Below are positions 44,121-52,577 of a stretch of DNA of 64,000 bases, piece by piece. Below the pieces are notes generated by a model. That model had not been told where the DNA came from, did no database searches, and saw only the letters and a list, made by a program, of their open reading frames with translations. The stretch lies in NCBI RefSeq assembly GCF_013407925.2, contig NZ_CP060201.1, positions 3,472,001 to 3,536,000 on the forward strand. The letters are read 5' to 3'. The stretch comes from Pseudomonas protegens (lineage in GTDB: Bacteria > Pseudomonadota > Gammaproteobacteria > Pseudomonadales > Pseudomonadaceae). Position numbers and translations under genes: made by a program. Position 1 is the first letter of the stretch. Each line of letters starts with the position of its first letter.

Positions 44121-44701
44121 TGGAAGCGCTGCAGCTGCCGTTGCCGGCGCAGTGGATCGGTCCGTTGTGGATCGGTGTGCAGATCCTGCTGATTCTGCTG
44201 GCGGGCTATCTGGCCCAGCGTTTCGTCGCCCGTGGCCTGACCCGCCTGGGTGAGCGTTACCCGTTCCCGCCGCAATTGCTGATGCCCCTGCGCGGCGGCC
44301 TGCGCTGGCTGATCATGGGCAGCGCGGTGATCTTCGTCCTGGAGCGCCTGGGGGTTTCCGCCACGGTGCTGTGGACCGCCCTGTCCGGCTTTGTCGCCGT
44401 GGCGGCGGTGGCGTTCTTCGCCATGTGGAGCGTGCTCTCCAACCTGCTGTGCGCGATCCTGATCTTCACCGTTGGCCCGTTCCGCCTGGGTGATGTGGTG
44501 GAGCTGGTGGACACCGTCGACAAGCCCGGGGTCAAGGGCCGGGTGGTGGCGATCAACCTGCTGTACACCACCCTCATCGAAGCCGAAGAGGCCGGCACCG
44601 GCAGCGCCATGGTCCAGGTGCCCAACAGCCTGTTCTTCCAGCGCTCGGTGCGCCGTTGGCGTGGCACCGATGCGCTGCCAGTAGGCGGCGGCGAGAAGTA
44701 A
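44120..44701 (+). CDS. Small MscS-like mechanosensitive channel
   Basis: A 193-residue protein with three N-terminal helices, then the MscS pore-and-beta segment (WTALSGFVAVAAVAFFAMWSVLSNLLCAILIFTVGPFRLGDVVELV and the beta-domain VKGRVVAINLLYTTL... VQVPNSLFFQRSVRRWRG). The C-terminal alpha/beta domain of full-length MscS (286 residues) is missing, as in other compact family members. Coupled to the ABC-F gene by TGATG. Confidence 0.88.
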   Translation: MEALQLPLPAQWIGPLWIGVQILLILLAGYLAQRFVARGLTRLGERYPFPPQLLMPLRGGLRWLIMGSAVIFVLERLGVSATVLWTALSGFVAVAAVAFFAMWSVLSNLLCAILIFTVGPFRLGDVVELVDTVDKPGVKGRVVAINLLYTTLIEAEEAGTGSAMVQVPNSLFFQRSVRRWRGTDALPVGGGEK

Positions 44702-44716
44702 CGCCTTGCTCTGTGG

Positions 44717-44808
44717 TTGCTGCCGCAGGCTGCGATGAGGTCCGCAGGACCTTCGGTGCCGCCAGCGCGGTGCCTGCTGCGCAGTCGTTCGCAGCCTGCG
44801 GCAGCGGC
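44717..44808. repeat. REPIN of a second family
   Basis: GCTGCCGCAGGCTGCGA at the left and its inverse TCGCAGCCTGCGGCAGC at the right enclose about 50 bp that contains GGTCCGCAGGACC. This is a different REP family from the GTAGGAGC type elsewhere in the window. Located between the MscS and LysE genes. Confidence 0.8.
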
Positions 44809-44907
44809 TAGAGGGGCGTGCGTGACCTTTGGGCGAAAAAAATATGGTCAGCCGCCAAGCAGAGGATTAGCTTAGGCAGTCACGACCAATTCGATCCGAG
44901 GTGTGCA

Positions 44908-45540
44908 ATGGTGCTTGAGACATGGCTGGCGTTCTTTGCCGCCAGTTGGGTAATCAGTCTTTCCCCGGGCGCCGGCGCCATTGCGTCGATGTCCTGCGGC
45001 CTGCAATACGGTTTCTGGCGCGGTTACTGGAACGCCCTGGGCCTGCAACTGGGCCTGGCCATGCAGATTGCCATTGTCGCCGCCGGTGTCGGCGCCATCC
45101 TCGCCGCCTCGGCCACTGCCTTCTATGCCATCAAGTGGTTCGGTGTGGCCTACCTGGTGTACCTGGCGGTCAAGCAATGGCGCGCGCTGCCCAGCGACCT
45201 CAGCGATGACGCCGCCATTCGCCCCATCGGCAAGCCCCTGGCCCTGGTGTTTCGCGGCTTCCTGGTGAACATCAGCAACCCCAAGGCCCTGGTGTTCATG
45301 CTCGCGGTGCTGCCGCAGTTCATCGATCCGCACGCACCCCTGGTCAAGCAGTACCTGATCCTCGGCGCCACCATGATCGTGGTCGATCTGATCGTCATGG
45401 CCGGCTACACCGGGCTGGCGTCCAAGGTCCTGCGCCTGCTGCGCACCCCGGTCCAGCAGCGGCGCATGAACCGCACCTTTGCCGGCCTGTTCCTCGGTGC
45501 GGCGGGCTTTCTGGCGACTATCCGCAAAGCGGCGGCCTAG
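44908..45540 (+). CDS. LysE/RhtB family amino-acid exporter
   Basis: A 210-residue inner-membrane exporter with six hydrophobic segments. The conserved N-terminus WLAFFAASWVISLSPGAGAIASMSCGLQYGFWRG contains the SPG-type signature; later GFLVNISNPKALVFMLAVLPQF is typical of RhtB. Substrate is probably a small amino acid such as homoserine or threonine, not determined. The ATG at 44908 follows GAGG; an upstream GTG at 44818 is unlikely. A bidirectional terminator follows. Confidence 0.9.
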   Translation: MVLETWLAFFAASWVISLSPGAGAIASMSCGLQYGFWRGYWNALGLQLGLAMQIAIVAAGVGAILAASATAFYAIKWFGVAYLVYLAVKQWRALPSDLSDDAAIRPIGKPLALVFRGFLVNISNPKALVFMLAVLPQFIDPHAPLVKQYLILGATMIVVDLIVMAGYTGLASKVLRLLRTPVQQRRMNRTFAGLFLGAAGFLATIRKAAA

Positions 45541-45553
45541 GTTTTCCAGAGAC

Positions 45554-45583
45554 AAAAAAAGGCGACCCACGGGTCGCCTTTTT
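45554..45583. terminator. Bidirectional terminator between LysE and the envelope lipoprotein cluster
   Basis: AAAAAAAGGCGACCCACGGG, then TCGCCTTTTT: an 8-bp stem flanked by A and T runs, serving both converging units. Confidence 0.9.
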
Positions 45584-45597
45584 CATTGGTGCACGGC

Positions 45598-46341
45598 TTA
45601 GCGCAGGATCACCGGCGCGGTGTCCGGCGGCAGGTTGTTGCGCATCGGCGCTTGCCCCGGTTGCTCGTAGCCACCGCGGCCCAGCTGCTCGGCCATCTGC
45701 CGGGTGACGTCTTCGCCCAGGGCCTTGGAGACTTCGCGCACCACCCGTGGGCGGTTCAGCGAGACACGGATGTCGCGGCTGTTCACCAGCTTGGTGTCCT
45801 GGCCTTCGCCCATGGCGGTGAACGCCGAGGTGATCTCGAAGGTGCGAGTGTTGATCAGGCTGAAGTCCGCCACCAGGGTCAGGCCCAGCACCGCCGAGTA
45901 GCTGTTGGTATTGGCCAGCTCGTTGATGTCCTGGGTGAAGTCGATGTCCGACACGGTGCCGAACAGCACGTAGTCGGCACCCTTGAAGTTGCCGGCCTTG
46001 ATGCGCTTGATGATGTCGTAGACGTTGGTCCTGGACGCGTCGGTGTGGGGCGAACCCTGCACCAGCTGGAACATCCCGGACTTGAGGATCCCGCCCTTGA
46101 TATCACCGGTGAACTTGCGCAGTTCGCCTTCCTCGATGTAGCTGGTGCTGGCTTCCAGTTCGTTGTAGCTGGCCGAGCCGCTGGAGCTGTAGTAGCCCTC
46201 GCGGTAGTTCTGCTGGGCCGAAACCACGTGGATGTATTCCTGCACACGTTCCTGGTAGGCCAGGTCCATGACTGCGACTTTCGGGGCCGCCTGCGCACTG
46301 AATGCGCAGGCCAGGGCCAGAATGCCAATCCATGCACGCAT
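45598..46341 (-). CDS. CsgG-like periplasmic protein of the lipoprotein cluster
   Basis: A 247-residue protein with a Sec signal peptide (MRAWIGILALACAFSAQA) and no lipobox. The mature part begins PKVAVMDLAYQERVQEY, a CsgG/LpoB-like opening, has a Ser/Tyr-rich insertion (YYSSSGSASYNELEASTSYIEEG) and continues with ADYVLFGTVSDIDFTQDINEL and LTLVADFSLINTRTFEITSAF, the repeated strand-helix pattern of the CsgG fold. The LpoB-like gene ends three bases upstream, so they form an operon. CsgG proper is a lipidated outer-membrane pore; absence of a lipobox makes a pore role unlikely. Function unknown. Confidence 0.75.
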   Translation of the reverse strand: MRAWIGILALACAFSAQAAPKVAVMDLAYQERVQEYIHVVSAQQNYREGYYSSSGSASYNELEASTSYIEEGELRKFTGDIKGGILKSGMFQLVQGSPHTDASRTNVYDIIKRIKAGNFKGADYVLFGTVSDIDFTQDINELANTNSYSAVLGLTLVADFSLINTRTFEITSAFTAMGEGQDTKLVNSRDIRVSLNRPRVVREVSKALGEDVTRQMAEQLGRGGYEQPGQAPMRNNLPPDTAPVILR

Positions 46342-46344
46342 TGC

Positions 46345-46932
46345 TTAGCGCTCCGTGGTCTTGCGGATCTCTTTCTCGTCCATCCACTCGGCCAGACCGC
46401 TCTCGACGTCGATCAGTTGCAGGCTGAATTTGTAGAAGACGTCCTTGTAGTCGCTGCTGCGCTTGACGATGGAGCTGATGGAGCCTTCAAGACGGTATTT
46501 GGCGGCAATCATGTTGCCAGTCTTGGCCACCGTGGATTTCTTGTACAGGCCGCTCTGGTTCTGCAGCTTGAGCTGGTCGACCTGGCTCTGCATGGCGGTG
46601 TTGTCGCTGGCGAAGCGAGCAGTGCCGGACTTCATCAGCTGGGTCTTGATCGAGGTGGTGATCTCGCGGGTGTCGATGTACTCGCTGGTCTTGTTCTTCA
46701 CGTCGTAGACCTGCACCACCGGGCGACCCTGGAGGATGCCGGACTGGGCCAGGGAGCGGGTCATGGATTCGGCGATCATCTGCAGGTCGGTGGAGCCGAA
46801 CTCGTTGGTCACCAGTTCCACGGCCTTGCTGTCGCCGTAGCTGATGTTCTTGCCGCCCAGTACCGGGGAGGTGTTGGCGCAACCGCTGGCCAGCAGGGCG
46901 ACCACGGCGAGGAAGGAAAAGCGTGCAAACAT
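46345..46932 (-). CDS. lpoB: LpoB-like lipoprotein (penicillin-binding-protein activator family)
   Basis: A 195-residue lipoprotein with lipobox LASGC, lipidated Cys18. The mature protein shows GGKNISYGDSKAVELVTNEFGSTDLQMIAESMTRSL, PVVQVYDVKNKTSEYIDTREITTSIKTQLMKSGTARF and YRLEGSISSIVKRSSDYKDVFYKFSLQLIDVESGLAEWMDEKEIRK, all typical of the LpoB family. In E. coli LpoB crosses the periplasm to activate PBP1B. The long disordered linker of E. coli LpoB is absent here, so direct reach to PBP1B is uncertain. YcfL-like gene precedes it by 33 bp. Confidence 0.83.
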   Translation of the reverse strand: MFARFSFLAVVALLASGCANTSPVLGGKNISYGDSKAVELVTNEFGSTDLQMIAESMTRSLAQSGILQGRPVVQVYDVKNKTSEYIDTREITTSIKTQLMKSGTARFASDNTAMQSQVDQLKLQNQSGLYKKSTVAKTGNMIAAKYRLEGSISSIVKRSSDYKDVFYKFSLQLIDVESGLAEWMDEKEIRKTTER

Positions 46933-46965
46933 GGAAGTGCTCTCTTGATCGGGTTCAGGGACGGC

Positions 46966-47337
46966 TTATTGGGTTTTGACTTCCAGGCGGAAGTCGGTGG
47001 CCTTGGGCACCGGCGCGATGGCCGGCAGGAAGGTGGCCTGGGCCGCGTACAGGTTGAAGACTTTCCAGCTTTCTTCATCGGCCACCGGGAAGCCGTCGTC
47101 GCCCAGCCAGACGAAGCGGTAGTACAGGGTCATGTTGGTGTGGCTGGTGTTGTTCAGCGCCACCTTGACCGTCAGGAAGCCGTTTTCACGGGCGACCCGC
47201 ATCGCGCCGATGGCGATGTTGTTGAACTTGTTCATCACCACCACCTTGCTCGCGGCGCTGCCGGGAGCAGGAGGTGGCGGGGTGGCGCAACCGGCCAATA
47301 GGGCCAGTGCGGCGACAGCGAGAAGCTTCAAGCGCAT
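46966..47337 (-). CDS. YcfL-like small lipoprotein
   Basis: A 123-residue lipoprotein, Cys17 in LLAGCATPPPP. The mature domain is a beta sandwich-like YcfL family segment (SKVVVMNKFNNIAIGAMRVARENGFLTVKVALNNTSHTNMTLYYRFVWLGDDGFPV). In E. coli ycfL lies next to lpoB (ycfM), the same pairing as here. Its stop is 33 bp from the LpoB start and its ATG is 13 bp from the COG3014 stop. Function not established. Confidence 0.82.
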   Translation of the reverse strand: MRLKLLAVAALALLAGCATPPPPAPGSAASKVVVMNKFNNIAIGAMRVARENGFLTVKVALNNTSHTNMTLYYRFVWLGDDGFPVADEESWKVFNLYAAQATFLPAIAPVPKATDFRLEVKTQ

Positions 47338-47350
47338 GAGGGGGCTCCGC

Positions 47351-48844
47351 TCAAGGACGTTGGTTGCTGGCCATGTTCTGGCCGGCGTTGTTCGGGATGA
47401 CATGGGCGGCTAGGCCGCTGCTGAACACCTGGTTGCCGACCACCCGCAGGGCGACCACTTGGTAGCGCTGGTCAATCTTGACCTGCACCTGGGTGCCGCC
47501 CAGGGCGTTGGGCAGGCTCAGGCTGTGTTCGCCCTGCTTGAGGCGCAGGCGCGTCACCTGGGTGTTGTCCGGCAGGGTGCGCCAGGTACGGGTATCGGCG
47601 CCTTCGGTCACCGCCGAAGCCAGGCCCACGGCCAGACCGGCCAGCGGGTTGACTTCGTTGAGGTTCTTTTGCGCCACGCCACGGGTCACGGCGCGCACCG
47701 TGGTGCGCAGGATGATCCCCGGCATGTCGTCGCGCAGGGCGCGGCGCGACATGGCGGTGGTGCTGTTGAGCAGGGTCAGGTTGTGTTGCTGGCCGTCGAT
47801 GCCGATCTGGGCAAAGGTCTGGGTCGAGGTGTCGGCCTTGATCACCGGGAACGACAGCGGGGTGATCACCAGATGGTCGTTGATCGGCAGCGGCAGGGGA
47901 ATGCGCACCGAGTCGCGGGCCGGGGCCAGGCCGCTCTGTACCACGATCAGCACGTCGCTTTCATCCGCCGCCAGGGCTGGTACCACCGGCGCCTTGGCGG
48001 GGGCCTTGGCCGCAGCCTTGCGCTTGGACTTGGCCGAAGACTTGCCCGGGGCTTCGATTTTCACCGGTTCCACGGGGGCGTCCAGGTTCAGCAGGGCCTG
48101 TTCCAGCAGCGGGGTGTTGGGGCGCAGTTCGGCAGCCTTGCGGTAGCCGGGGGCGGCCAGGTCCTTCTCGCCCAGGGCTTCGTAGACGAAGCCGGCCAGG
48201 TAGTGGCTGAAGGCGCTCTGGTAGCTGTTTTTCAGGTTGACCACGTCCGGGGCGTCAAGGGCTTCCACCGGGTAGCCCTTGAGGTCCTTGTACTCGGTCT
48301 TGATCCCTTGCTTCTCGGCTTCGTCCTCGCGCTTGAGGTATTCCTTGTCGCGCAGTTCGGCGATCACCGCTTCGCGCTCGTGGGTCTTCTTGATCGCCAT
48401 GCGGGCGCCGTCGAAGTCATTGCCGGCCAGCAGGTTCATGGCCATCTGGGTGGTCAGCATGACCTTTTCGTAGTCGTAGCCTTCGTAGCGGCGGACCTTG
48501 TCGTTGACCAGGAAGCTGCCGAACTGGGCCAGGTACTTGTCGGTGTCGAGCTTGACCGAATCTTCCCAGCTGGCCACCACCTGATCGGCATGGCCCCAGG
48601 CGGCCTGGCTGCCATTGAGGTCACCCTTGGCCCGCAGCAACTCGCCCTTTTCGAAGTAGTAGAGCAGGTCCTTGTCTTCACCCTGGTTGTTCTTTTCCAG
48701 CAGGGTCAGGGCGGCATCGAGGTTGCCGGTGCGCAGTTGCTGGTTGGTTTCCTGCAGTTCGCTGTCGTAGCTGCGCAAGGCCGAACAGCCTGCAAGCAAA
48801 GTGACTGCGCCGAGGGCAATCGTGGTGAGGGCGCGGGATGCCAT
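47351..48844 (-). CDS. COG3014-type lipoprotein, paralogue 1
   Basis: A 497-residue lipoprotein, Cys20 in LLAGCSAL. The N-terminal half is TPR-like (NQQLRTGNLDAALTLLEKNNQ, YFEKGELLRAKGDLNGSQ, EGYDYEKVMLTTQMAMNLL, SHYLAGFVYEALGEKDLAAPGYRKAAELRPNTP), an Ala/Lys-rich linker follows (SSAKSKRKAAAKAPAKAP), then a beta-rich domain with VIVQSGLAPARDSVRIPLPL, SRRALRDDMPGIILRTTVRAVTR and DTRTWRTLPDNTQVTRLRL. The second paralogue lies 223 bp upstream. First gene of the four-gene operon to the CsgG-like gene. Start at 48844 follows GGAAGAAGAAG. Confidence 0.85.
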   Translation of the reverse strand: MASRALTTIALGAVTLLAGCSALRSYDSELQETNQQLRTGNLDAALTLLEKNNQGEDKDLLYYFEKGELLRAKGDLNGSQAAWGHADQVVASWEDSVKLDTDKYLAQFGSFLVNDKVRRYEGYDYEKVMLTTQMAMNLLAGNDFDGARMAIKKTHEREAVIAELRDKEYLKREDEAEKQGIKTEYKDLKGYPVEALDAPDVVNLKNSYQSAFSHYLAGFVYEALGEKDLAAPGYRKAAELRPNTPLLEQALLNLDAPVEPVKIEAPGKSSAKSKRKAAAKAPAKAPVVPALAADESDVLIVVQSGLAPARDSVRIPLPLPINDHLVITPLSFPVIKADTSTQTFAQIGIDGQQHNLTLLNSTTAMSRRALRDDMPGIILRTTVRAVTRGVAQKNLNEVNPLAGLAVGLASAVTEGADTRTWRTLPDNTQVTRLRLKQGEHSLSLPNALGGTQVQVKIDQRYQVVALRVVGNQVFSSGLAAHVIPNNAGQNMASNQRP

Positions 48845-49067
48845 GGGTACTTCTTCTTCCCTGAATGAGACAGCCGGGCGTGCGGGTCGGGCTGGACGAA
48901 CCCACTGGCAGGAGCGCTGGCGATCCTGCCAATTCCTCATAAAAAGAGGAGCTTAAATGCCATTTCGCGATAACGAGGGCGCGGCATTATAGACGTGGTT
49001 TTGGGTGGTGTAATGGCTTTTTAGGGTCAGATTGATAGTTGTTAGCCACTATGTGAGCCGCTGCGCA

Positions 49068-50435
49068 TTAACCACCGAACAGGGCGGCCAGCGGCGATCG
49101 TTCCTCCGGCGCGGGGGCGATGACGAACAACTGGTCGCCCACTCTGCGCAGGCTGATGACCTGGAAGCGCTGGTCCAGCCTGAAGGGCAATTGCGCGCTC
49201 TTGCCCAGGGCCAGCCGGTGCTGGCCTTTCTTCAGGCGCAGACGGGCTACCAGGGTGGTGTCCGGCAGGGTGCGCCAGGTGCGGGTGTCGGCGTCCTCGA
49301 TCAGCACGTTGAGCCGCTGTTTCTCCTTGGCCCGCTGCGGGTCCTTCTTCAATTGCTGGGCCTGGAAGGCGGCGTAGGACTGGGCGCGGTAGGTGGTGCG
49401 CAGGATGATCCCGGGCATGTCGTCGCGCAGGGCCCGGCGCGACATGGCGCTGACGCTGTTGAGGGCGGTCAGCGGCTGTTTGCGACCATTCACGCTGAGC
49501 TGCTCCACGGGGCGGGTCGAGGTGTCGGCGAGCATGATCGGGAACGACACCAGGGTCGGGATCGGCTGGCCCTCGATCTCCACGGTGACCGGCAACTGCA
49601 CCGAGCCTCGGGCCGGCGCCAGGCCGTTCTGCACGATGATCAGCACGTCGCTTTCATCGGCCTTGGCAGTGGGGCGATCGAGGCTGCGCAGGGCTTGTTC
49701 CAGCAACGGCGTATGGGGGCGCAGCTCGATTGCCTGGCGATAACCGGCGGCGGCCAGGCCCCGTTCGCCCAGGGCTTCGTAGAGGTAGCCGGCCAGGTAA
49801 TGGCTGAAGGCGCTCTGGTAGCTGTTCTTCAGCTCCAGCACTTCGGGGGCGTCCAGGGTCGCCACCGGATAACCGTGCAAATCCTGGTAGCGCACGTTGA
49901 TGCCCTGGCTGTGGGCCTGTTCTTCGAGCTGCAGGTACTGCTTGTCCCGCAACTCGGCGATCAGCGCCTCGCGCTCGTGGGTCTTCTTGATCTCGATGCG
50001 CGCGCCGTCGAAGTCCTGCAGGGCCAGGTGGTTGATCGCCATCTGGGTGGTCAGCATGACCTTTTCGTAGTCGTAGCCCTCGTAGCGTCGGACCTTGTCG
50101 TTGATCAGGTAGCTGCCGAACTGGGCCAGGTACTTGGCGCTGTCGAACTTCACCGACTCTTCCCAGGTGAACAGCACCCGGTCGGCCCGGCGCCAGGCCA
50201 GCTGGCTGCCGATCAGGTCGCCCTTGGCCCGCAGCAGTTCGCCTTTCTCGAAGTAATAGAGCAGGTCCTTGTCTTGCCAGGGATTGTGCTGTTCCAGCAG
50301 GGCCAGGGCGCCGTCGACGTTGCCAGCCTGCAGTTGCTGGTTGGTCTGTTGCAGTTCCAGGTCGTAGTTGCGAAAGATCGAACAGCCGCTCAGCAGCAGG
50401 ATCGACAGCAGCAAGGAGATAAGGCAGCGGGTCAT
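49068..50435 (-). CDS. COG3014-type lipoprotein, paralogue 2
   Basis: A 455-residue lipoprotein, Cys18 in LLSGCSIF. Collinear with paralogue 1 over its length: YYFEKGELLRAKGDLIGSQLAWRRAD, RRYEGYDYEKVMLTTQMAINHL, AFSHYLAGYLYEALGERGLAAAGYR, VIIVQNGLAPARGSVQLPV, SRRALRDDMPGIILRTTYRA and DTRTWRTLPDTTLVARLRLKKGQ. It lacks the Ala/Lys linker (goes LRSLDRPTAKADESDV) and instead has a Lys/Arg-rich insert in the C-terminal domain (QLKKDPQRAKEKQR). The two genes are thus a tandem duplication that has diverged. Separated by 223 bp from its copy, it may have its own promoter. Confidence 0.85.
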   Translation of the reverse strand: MTRCLISLLLSILLLSGCSIFRNYDLELQQTNQQLQAGNVDGALALLEQHNPWQDKDLLYYFEKGELLRAKGDLIGSQLAWRRADRVLFTWEESVKFDSAKYLAQFGSYLINDKVRRYEGYDYEKVMLTTQMAINHLALQDFDGARIEIKKTHEREALIAELRDKQYLQLEEQAHSQGINVRYQDLHGYPVATLDAPEVLELKNSYQSAFSHYLAGYLYEALGERGLAAAGYRQAIELRPHTPLLEQALRSLDRPTAKADESDVLIIVQNGLAPARGSVQLPVTVEIEGQPIPTLVSFPIMLADTSTRPVEQLSVNGRKQPLTALNSVSAMSRRALRDDMPGIILRTTYRAQSYAAFQAQQLKKDPQRAKEKQRLNVLIEDADTRTWRTLPDTTLVARLRLKKGQHRLALGKSAQLPFRLDQRFQVISLRRVGDQLFVIAPAPEERSPLAALFGG

Positions 50436-50678
50436 AGATGGTGGTTCTTCCCTGAACGTGACCTGCAAGAGGTGGCGCATTATCAGGGGCAGACAGTGGG
50501 CAGGGAAGGGCTATCGGGTCCTGGTGGCGGATGCGGGGCGCCTGTCGCGTGGCCGGCAGCTGGGCGCCGTTGGGCAGGCGCTGGTCAGCGGAAATGTTTC
50601 AACAGACGGATAAGCCTTGAGTGAAACTCATTGGGAGTGAACAATATGTTACTTCGTATTTCCATTTGAGATTCGTTC

Positions 50679-52577
50679 ATGACTGGCCCTTCCCGTTTAC
50701 TGGCATTGCTGGTGCTGCCGGTACTCGCGCTCTGCAGCTTCAACCTGCTGGCCGATACCGTCGATGGCGCGCCCAAGGCCTTGCATCTGCTGGATTACAT
50801 CGGCGCCGATTACCCGCCCACGGTTGAAGCCGGCAAGGTCGTCGACGAGTCCGAATACCGCGAACAGGTGGAGTTTCTCGGGGTCTTGCAAGGGCTGATC
50901 GCCGAGCTGCCGGCCAAACCGGAGAAGGCCGAGCTGGAGCAGGGCATCGCCGCTTTGCGCAAGGCGGTGGAGGATCGGCTCGAGGGGGCTCAGGTGGCCC
51001 GTCTGGCGCGGCAGATGGGAGCCAAGCTGGCGGTGGCCTATGAGGTCAGCCAGGCGCCGGTCATTACCCCGGACCCGAGCCGCGGTGCGCCGCTGTATGC
51101 CCAGCACTGCTCGGTGTGCCACGGCGAAAAAGGCGCCGGCGATGGTCCGGCCGGCGTTGGCATGACTCCGCCACCGGCCAATCTGCGGGATGCCGAGCGT
51201 CTTGATCGCCTGAGCCTGTACGCGGTCTACAACACCCTGGGGCTGGGTGTTGAAGGCACGGACATGCCGGCCTTTGCCGATCAGCTGGATGACCGCCAAC
51301 GTTGGGACCTGGCCACTTACATCGCCGGGTTCAGCGCCGATCCGGCGGCGGCCAAGGGCGAGCAAGGCTTCAACCTGGCCGACCTGGCCCGGCAGACGCC
51401 CGCCGAAGTCCTGGCCGCCCAAGGCCCGCAGGCCGCCGCCACCTTCCGCGCCCAGCGGGCGCAGCCGCCTCAGGTCAAGCGGGGTCCGGGGCAGTTGCTG
51501 GACTACACCGCCTCGACCCTGGACAAGAGTCTTGCGGCCTATCGCAACGGCGATCATGAACAGGCCTATGACCTGTCGGTAGCGGCGTACCTGGAAGGTT
51601 TCGAGCTGGTGGAAAGCTCCCTGGACAACGTCGATGCCACGGTGCGCAAGGACACGGAAAAGGCCCTGATGGCCTACCGTCAGTCGTTGCAGGACGGCTT
51701 GCCGGTGGCTCAGGCCGAGCAGCGCCTGGACGCGGCCAAGGCCAAGCTCAAGGAGTCTGCCGGGCTTCTGGGCGGCGACAGCCTGAGCTGGTCGCTGAGC
51801 TTTATCTCCGGCTTGCTGATCCTGCTGCGCGAGGGGCTGGAAGCGATCCTGGTGCTGGCGGCCATCCTCGCCTTCCTGCGTAACACCGGCCAGCAATCGG
51901 CGGTGCGCAGCGTCAACGTCGGCTGGGGCCTGGCGTTGCTGGCGGGCCTGGGCACCTGGGCTCTGGCGGCTTACGTGATCGACGTCAGCGGTTCCCAGCG
52001 CGAGCTGCTGGAAGGTGCTACCGCGCTGTTCGCCAGCGTCATGGTGCTGTGGCTCGGGGTGTGGATGCATGATCGCCGGCATGCGGCGGCCTGGCAGGAC
52101 TACATCAAAAGCAGCCTGGTGGGCGGCGGCGGGCGTTTCGGCTTTGCCGTGCTGGCGTTCTTCTCGGTGTATCGCGAGCTGTTCGAAGTGATCCTGTTCT
52201 ACGAAACCCTGTGGCTGCAGGCCGGCCCCGCCGGACACAACGCGGTGCTGGCCGGTGGCGCCACCGCCCTGGTGCTGCTGGTGGGCCTGGCCTGGGTGAT
52301 CCTGCGGGGTTCGGCCAAGCTGCCGCTGGCGCTGTTCTTCGGCATCAACGCGGCGTTGCTCTGCGCCTTGTCGGTGGTGTTTGCCGGGCACGGGGTCAAG
52401 GCCCTGCAGGAAGCCGGTATCTTCGGCACCCGGCCAGTGCCGTTCTTCGACTTCGACTGGCTGGGGATTCACGCCGACGCTTACTCGCTGGGTGCCCAGG
52501 CGGTGGCCATCCTGGCGATCGTGGTGCTTTATAGTCGCAGTCGCCTGAGTGAGAAGCGGCGCTTGCAGGCTTCTTGA
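50679..52577 (+). CDS. FTR1-family iron permease with fused cytochrome c domain
   Basis: A 632-residue membrane protein. Signal peptide (1-25), helical periplasmic region, a cytochrome c domain with C144-S-V-C147-H148 and Met ligand candidate in GTDMPAF, another helical region (DYTASTLDKSLAAYRNGDHEQAYDLSVAAYLEGFE), then the FTR1 permease of seven helices with the iron-transfer motifs REGLE at 384-388 and RELFE at 499-503. FTR1 permeases import iron after oxidation by a copper oxidase or, in this fused form, possibly use the heme to handle the electron. ATG at 50679; no clear Fur box was found upstream. A terminator lies 17 bp downstream. Confidence 0.92.
   Translation: MTGPSRLLALLVLPVLALCSFNLLADTVDGAPKALHLLDYIGADYPPTVEAGKVVDESEYREQVEFLGVLQGLIAELPAKPEKAELEQGIAALRKAVEDRLEGAQVARLARQMGAKLAVAYEVSQAPVITPDPSRGAPLYAQHCSVCHGEKGAGDGPAGVGMTPPPANLRDAERLDRLSLYAVYNTLGLGVEGTDMPAFADQLDDRQRWDLATYIAGFSADPAAAKGEQGFNLADLARQTPAEVLAAQGPQAAATFRAQRAQPPQVKRGPGQLLDYTASTLDKSLAAYRNGDHEQAYDLSVAAYLEGFELVESSLDNVDATVRKDTEKALMAYRQSLQDGLPVAQAEQRLDAAKAKLKESAGLLGGDSLSWSLSFISGLLILLREGLEAILVLAAILAFLRNTGQQSAVRSVNVGWGLALLAGLGTWALAAYVIDVSGSQRELLEGATALFASVMVLWLGVWMHDRRHAAAWQDYIKSSLVGGGGRFGFAVLAFFSVYRELFEVILFYETLWLQAGPAGHNAVLAGGATALVLLVGLAWVILRGSAKLPLALFFGINAALLCALSVVFAGHGVKALQEAGIFGTRPVPFFDFDWLGIHADAYSLGAQAVAILAIVVLYSRSRLSEKRRLQAS

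Follow-up and report, generated by a model that had tools for sequence, protein, structure and literature searches.

A stretch of 64,000 nucleotides of Pseudomonas protegens DNA (contig NZ_CP060201.1, positions 3,472,001 to 3,536,000; the whole stretch is called the window here, and all coordinates refer to it) holds five adjacent genes read leftward on the minus strand, named E, D, C, B and A in that direction, of which D-C-B-A form a real, conserved and poorly described operon. Taken from the list of open reading frames, E (49068..50435) encodes a lipoprotein of 455 amino acids, the second of COG3014 type and a variable paralogue, and D (47351..48844), assigned also by similarity, a COG3014-type lipoprotein of 497 amino acids. 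C (46966..47337), recognised by its PF07233 match, encodes a YcfL/DUF1425 lipoprotein of 123 amino acids; B (46345..46932), recognised by TIGR02722 and PF13036, an LpoB-family lipoprotein of 195 amino acids; and A (45598..46341) a Sec-secreted protein of 247 amino acids for which a structural model and fold search predict a fold of the CsgG or FlgT-middle-domain type. The E-D, D-C, C-B and B-A gaps measure 223, 13, 33 and 3 bp, and lipoboxes, from which lipidation is predicted, can be read in B (ASGC), C and D (both LAGC) and E (LSGC), with A carrying a Sec-type signal and no lipobox cysteine. A preliminary description of the locus had drawn the same picture of five leftward genes, with these gaps, four lipoboxes and one Sec signal, and every element of it is confirmed.

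The block is bounded at the A end by a LysE-family gene (44908..45540, plus strand) and at the E end by a gene for an FTR1-type iron permease (50679..52577, plus strand), both assigned by homology. A and LysE share a bidirectional terminator at about 45555..45585, already proposed in the preliminary description, which folds on both strands at -22.0 and -20.5 kcal/mol (z -5.0 and -4.1), none of 200 shuffles being as stable; a simple terminator scan had missed this segment. At the other end of the operon, a likely sigma-70-type promoter, ATTACA-17-TATAAT followed by a GC-rich stretch, lies at 48986..49014 on the minus strand. Scanning alone performs at chance level here (one site found, 0.6 expected in the scanned stretch), and among seven aligned loci TATAAT is kept in all seven and ATTACA in six, so that D-C-B-A likely has its own promoter 5' of D. 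Neither a search of the window for AlgU-type promoters nor an Rfam search over 44500-52000 returned a match.

B and C score well above their family cut-offs. B scores 140.6 bits against the equivalog TIGR02722 (cut-off 110.55) and 146.3 bits against PF13036 (cut-off 22.3), and C scores 69.6 bits against PF07233 (cut-off 28.3). Within Pfam, D and E match tetratricopeptide repeat (TPR) profiles alone, all under their cut-offs, and their COG3014 assignment is one of similarity to proteins so named rather than to a public COG profile, the NCBI label "COG3014 family protein" being carried by proteins that share 91% identity with E and 95% with D. The predicted structure of D combines a helical, TPR-like part (about residues 24-258) with a beta part (about residues 295-482) that includes a helical hairpin at 362-413, and the predicted TPR-like half bears out the earlier view of COG3014 as a TPR-bearing family. 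Comparison of D with PDB sequences matched TPR proteins and designed proteins at the TPR positions; because the structure searches (Foldseek, VIA) likewise list TPR or helical proteins, they hardly probed its beta half.

A is less easily placed. It barely passes PF13036 (22.9 versus 22.3 bits) and has no match at E-values up to 1 to the Pfam profiles PF03783 (CsgG), FlgT_N, FlgT_M or FlgT_C. Its model is weak (mean predicted local distance difference test score 60.8) and does not resolve transmembrane hairpins, residues 34-66 being of low confidence; the fold search places FlgT, the best match, together with PelC and CsgG among its top PDB matches. Since PF03783 finds no match, the designation of A as CsgG-like in the preliminary description rests on fold: it stands for the fold of this weak model, and not for the family profile.

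Within the genus, the operon occupies a single site in the 80 loci compared. A genome search with D gave 249 relatives, and the best 80, all Pseudomonas by title, were kept; D, C, B and A are present between FTR1 and LysE in all 80 kept loci, FTR1 being found in all 80 and LysE in 78 (L075 and L083 end before it). E, between FTR1 and D, has a long match in 39 of these 80 named loci, short remnants in two and none in 39; both remnants come from strains closely related to that of the window, P. protegens FD6 and 14B2. Behind an A gene of Pseudomonas sp. TH43 and before LysE (L078:11353-12761) lie three extra 339-bp pieces of A, 82-85% identical and repeated with a period of 535 bp. Every name given in the 120-entry list of a protein search with a mixed profile was Pseudomonas. 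Among 149 sampled Pseudomonas genomes, B was found in 78 and D in 77, both occurring together in the same 77, and the additional B match, in genome G274, is to a degenerate fragment interrupted by a stop. The LysE-FTR1 gap of G274 holds pieces of A, of B and of the region upstream of D, in order, and is by its sequence the scar of a deletion of D-C-B-A, that is, a secondary loss. In 21 genomes lacking an intact B, the distance between LysE and FTR1 is under 400 bp in 12 and about 0.8-0.9 kb in three; the two genes lie on different contigs in one, and in five no full-length FTR1 was found.

These data revise the earlier reading of the block as an accessory insertion between core genes in P. aeruginosa order. 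That order was followed only as LysE-FTR1 adjacency in Pseudomonas genomes. "Accessory" is half right: D is present in 77 of 149 genomes and LysE and FTR1 adjoin without the block in 15 of 21, one of them the scarred G274, whereas the common site in 80 loci and the G274 remnant partly rule out a plain accessory island. D-C-B-A is accessory in the genus but an old resident, because one site is kept in the 80 named loci and some of the absences are losses. Among near relatives the median ratio of nonsynonymous to synonymous substitution rates is lowest for B (0.033), followed by C (0.060), A (0.084) and D (0.132) over seven pairs; for E it is 0.125 over three pairs.

Linkage between COG3014 and LpoB reaches across the class Gammaproteobacteria. 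In a sample of 229 genomes of the class, D matched in 45, and in 40 of these a same-strand LpoB match scoring above 55 bits lies no more than 4 kb away (the LpoB of G116, at 55.0 bits, falls just under this line). Such an LpoB match occurs in 48 genomes, 42 of which match D, and local profiles place D beside B in four of the remaining six, G075 and G136 being without it. We further compared 50 D loci, comprising 49 fetched from 48 genomes and the window. In 46 of them, local profiles detect LpoB at 3 kb or less; as a random gene of a 3 Mb genome would fall within 3 kb about 0.2% of the time, this linkage is far above chance. The genome-wide comparisons given below count 48 COG3014 genomes, which include the profile-only finds G038, G051, G052 and G053 and leave out G114, whose TPR match spans 65 residues and which is one of the 50 D loci.

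The association extends outside the class. A sample of 249 genomes of the phylum gave 21 D matches below an E-value of 1e-30 outside the class, and of 20 loci fetched from this sample 18 lie outside the class, 17 of these with B beside D, and two within it, both likewise with B beside D. Gene order varies, from D-C-B-A through CsgG-type-D-C-B to LPP20-B-D-LPP20, yet the set stays together across classes. The preliminary description had proposed a linked, poorly described lipoprotein system and a check of whether COG3014 co-occurs with LpoB-, YcfL- and CsgG-like genes; its set of partners proves right, the system is upheld by the 46 of 50 loci, and the linkage held across the class and beyond. 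The whole D-C-B-A order recurs in six genomes of another class, and in the four of these compared the BLAST identities to the window are 41-44% for A, 62-63% for B, 38-41% for C and 45-49% for D, while for 14 other D proteins, drawn from within the class, identity across the full alignment is 17-32%, a measure that differs from that of BLAST. Because the other-class identities exceed those of the 14 in-class D proteins, they point to a probable transfer of D-C-B-A between classes.

Two kinds of partner are not found together at these loci. Among the 50 D loci, YcfL is found in 17 and LPP20-cluster proteins in 22, both in none and neither in 11, the zero joint loci comparing with about 7.5 expected (hypergeometric 2e-6, kinship uncorrected). 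The LPP20 assignment comes from four proteins scanned with Pfam, of which a pair of about 335 residues passes the cut-off and a pair of about 190 residues does not; an LPP20 search of the window's own genome gave no match, but controls were equally silent. In some loci a CsgG-domain protein, at times with FlgT_C, stands beside D. Larger clusters with CsgG-domain proteins beside COG3014-LpoB were seen in L171, L173, L175, L178 and L179, including a 931-residue protein with two CsgG and two FlgT_C stretches in L178; L173, L175 and L179 also carry proteins that group in one cluster, its member in L175 being DUF6844.

B shares its family with LpoB of Escherichia coli and C with YcfL, and comparison with Aeromonas caviae ties the two loci together. 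The order in E. coli K-12 is hinT-ycfL-lpoB-thiK, with no COG3014 between hinT and ycfL, and in A. caviae it is hinT-COG3014-ycfL-lpoB-APH-family kinase, so that the A. caviae COG3014 operon likewise lies between hinT and an APH-family kinase. The A. caviae hinT is 78% identical to that of E. coli over 115 residues, the COG3014 gene, placed by hand, begins at the hinT stop, and the LpoB scores 218.6 bits against TIGR02722; the kinase resembles ThiK modestly (29% over 129 residues) and the two YcfL proteins give a brief alignment only. The A. caviae sequence (NZ_AP026896.1, L242) is filed as a plasmid of 4.94 Mb, and its size and hinT locus suggest a chromosome. The most economical explanation is a loss of COG3014 from the hinT-ycfL-lpoB locus in E. 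coli.

The E. coli protein also differs in its tether. Between the lipid cysteine and the domain, B has a spacer of 30 residues with one proline, and in the 62 measurable of 67 other LpoBs, a set that includes some without D beside them (e.g. L177, L184 and L191), this tether spans 21-36 residues with a median of 23 (23 in A. caviae, counted by hand), compared with 58 residues and 16 prolines in E. coli. In the available portions of three papers (PMC6220978, PMC9593243, PMC7554673), the E. coli tether is described as the means of reaching penicillin-binding protein 1B (PBP1B) through the wall. Measured against what defines LpoB, B exceeds the profile cut-offs and has the lipobox, but not the long disordered tether (30 versus 58). 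Given that the A. caviae order matches that of E. coli, lpoB of E. coli seems to descend, reduced and with an extended linker, from a fuller COG3014 locus. A tree places E. coli LpoB beside a COG3014-linked LpoB (90/89), on a branch of length 9, and is not relied on.

The preliminary description had suggested a role perhaps in peptidoglycan synthesis or in a secretion pore, noting that LpoB activates PBP1B; a role through PBP1B is not supported in that form. The window's own genome has a UB2H-bearing PBP1B with the LpoP gene directly behind it (E-value 1.2e-54 against 6w5q). LpoP, the PBP1B activator of P. aeruginosa, is like B an outer-membrane lipoprotein of the same cell and has TPRs like COG3014, but it is encoded behind PBP1B elsewhere in the genome and, as far as the available part of the report describes it (PMC7267771), has a TPR fold and not an LpoB fold. 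A UB2H match of at least 55 bits is found in 35 of the 48 COG3014 genomes (13 without) versus 96 of 181 genomes without COG3014 (P 0.014, kinship uncorrected), and FlgH in 33 of the 48 (15 without) versus 90 of the 181 (P 0.023, uncorrected). Neither UB2H nor FlgH is thus required in COG3014 genomes, and a weak link to either may exist. With short tethers, with LpoP behind PBP1B and with 13 of 48 genomes giving no strong UB2H match, the LpoB-COG3014 operons are unlikely to have PBP1B activation as their common role, although the weak UB2H association remains.

We propose a model, which we consider about evenly balanced between right and wrong, where D-C-B-A, with a dispensable E, encode a single periplasmic assembly held at the inner leaflet of the outer membrane, whose main task is not PBP1B activation. 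The case for this model draws on the linkage (40 of 45, 46 of 50 and 17 of 18) and on the co-inheritance of D and B in 77 of 149 Pseudomonas genomes, together with the D-C-B-A order in another class, the mutual avoidance of YcfL and LPP20, the synteny with E. coli, the short tethers, LpoP behind PBP1B, the 13 of 48 genomes without strong UB2H and the fold of A. COG3014 (D and E) would serve as a lipid-held scaffold with a TPR-like arm and a beta part, on which YcfL and the short-tethered LpoB domain may dock near the membrane, and the soluble CsgG/FlgT-fold protein A would join or cap the complex, possibly as a ring. LPP20-type lipoproteins take the place of YcfL in many other bacteria. The likely role would be coupling of the outer membrane to the cell wall, or the holding of an outer-membrane assembly, and E. 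coli LpoB would be a reduced descendant whose COG3014 partner has gone and whose tether has lengthened so as to reach PBP1B. The genes, lipid signals, predicted folds, co-inheritance, linkage across classes and the locus shared with E. coli are observed; physical assembly, ring formation and a main task other than PBP1B activation are our inference. More tentatively, and with a greater chance of being wrong than right, LpoB may have begun as a short-tethered subunit of a widespread outer-membrane machine (COG3014 with either YcfL or LPP20 and sometimes a CsgG/FlgT-fold ring protein), of which E. coli would retain a remnant that lost its scaffold and grew a tether for a new client; this machine would then be a ring or collar class separate from the H-ring and the curli pore.

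The operon could instead control a peptidoglycan synthase, the TPR arm of COG3014 carrying the LpoB domain through the wall and E. coli having swapped that arm for a proline-rich tether. We regard this as possible but doubtful. It would account for the B score above the LpoB equivalog cut-off, for the locus shared with E. coli lpoB and for the TPR-like half of COG3014, TPRs being used by LpoP, CpoB and LpoA according to the available part of one report (PMC7267771), and the weak positive UB2H association keeps the PBP1B idea open; on the other hand, LpoP is already behind PBP1B in the same genome, the 13 COG3014 genomes without a strong UB2H match stand outside it, and A and the LPP20 partners are left unexplained.

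That A might be a CsgG-type outer-membrane channel, the lipoproteins being accessories of a curli-like secretion pore, we judge unlikely. The weakly modelled fold of A resembles that of the CsgG and PelC outer-membrane rings, with CsgG, PelC and FlgT among its top fold matches, and CsgG-domain proteins stand beside COG3014 in some other genomes, but A differs from these rings in having no lipobox, and hence no lipid anchor, and no CsgG profile match, its low-confidence segment resolves no transmembrane hairpins, and the five genes include no candidate substrate. Still less probable is a set of independent envelope lipoproteins, co-transcribed and having only regulation in common: direct binding evidence is absent and E is often missing where D-C-B-A is kept, but D and B are present or absent together, and a set whose order varies between genomes holds together across classes all the same. 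A flagellar accessory, as a variant of the H-ring (FlgO, FlgP, FlgT), is the most improbable, since, although the top fold match of A is FlgT and LPP20-cluster proteins occur at 22 of 50 COG3014 loci, FlgH is missing in 15 of 48 COG3014 genomes, A has neither FlgT_N nor FlgT_C, and none of the five genes is of a flagellar family by Pfam, neighbouring genes having been clustered and few of them scanned against Pfam, and no systematic search for flagellar neighbours made.

We found no published function for COG3014 and no paper recognisably on the operon, most subscription journals lying outside the search. Two candidate reports were set aside on the portions available: in a P. fluorescens deletion that rescues mreB loss (PMC11957537), the oprD, cspC and hypothetical genes named do not match the block, and a LolCDE-inhibitor expression study (PMC7685553) offers no usable link to it. 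LpoB has been described, in the accessible text of the respective papers, as restricted to enterobacteria at a 100-bit cut-off (PMC3060616) and as limited to a subset of gammaproteobacteria (PMC7554673). Here short-tethered members of the family are found beside COG3014 in many genomes of gammaproteobacteria as well as in some of another class; the LpoB Pfam family also matches a Bacteroides control genome, and its wider reach is not itself new. LpoB serves as the textbook case of wall growth being controlled from the outer membrane. If the proposed model is true, the question of its first role opens, COG3014 and YcfL gain a context, and PBP1B may not be activated by many of the proteins that bear the label "penicillin-binding protein activator LpoB". 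The locus, apparently older and fuller than the one in which E. coli retains only YcfL and LpoB, allows a test of what LpoB originally did. In the available part of one study, deletion of a gene called lpoB in Aeromonas hydrophila is reported to lower biofilm formation, adhesion and resistance to predation and peroxide (PMC5861188), and by analogy with A. caviae this lpoB probably lies in a COG3014 operon.

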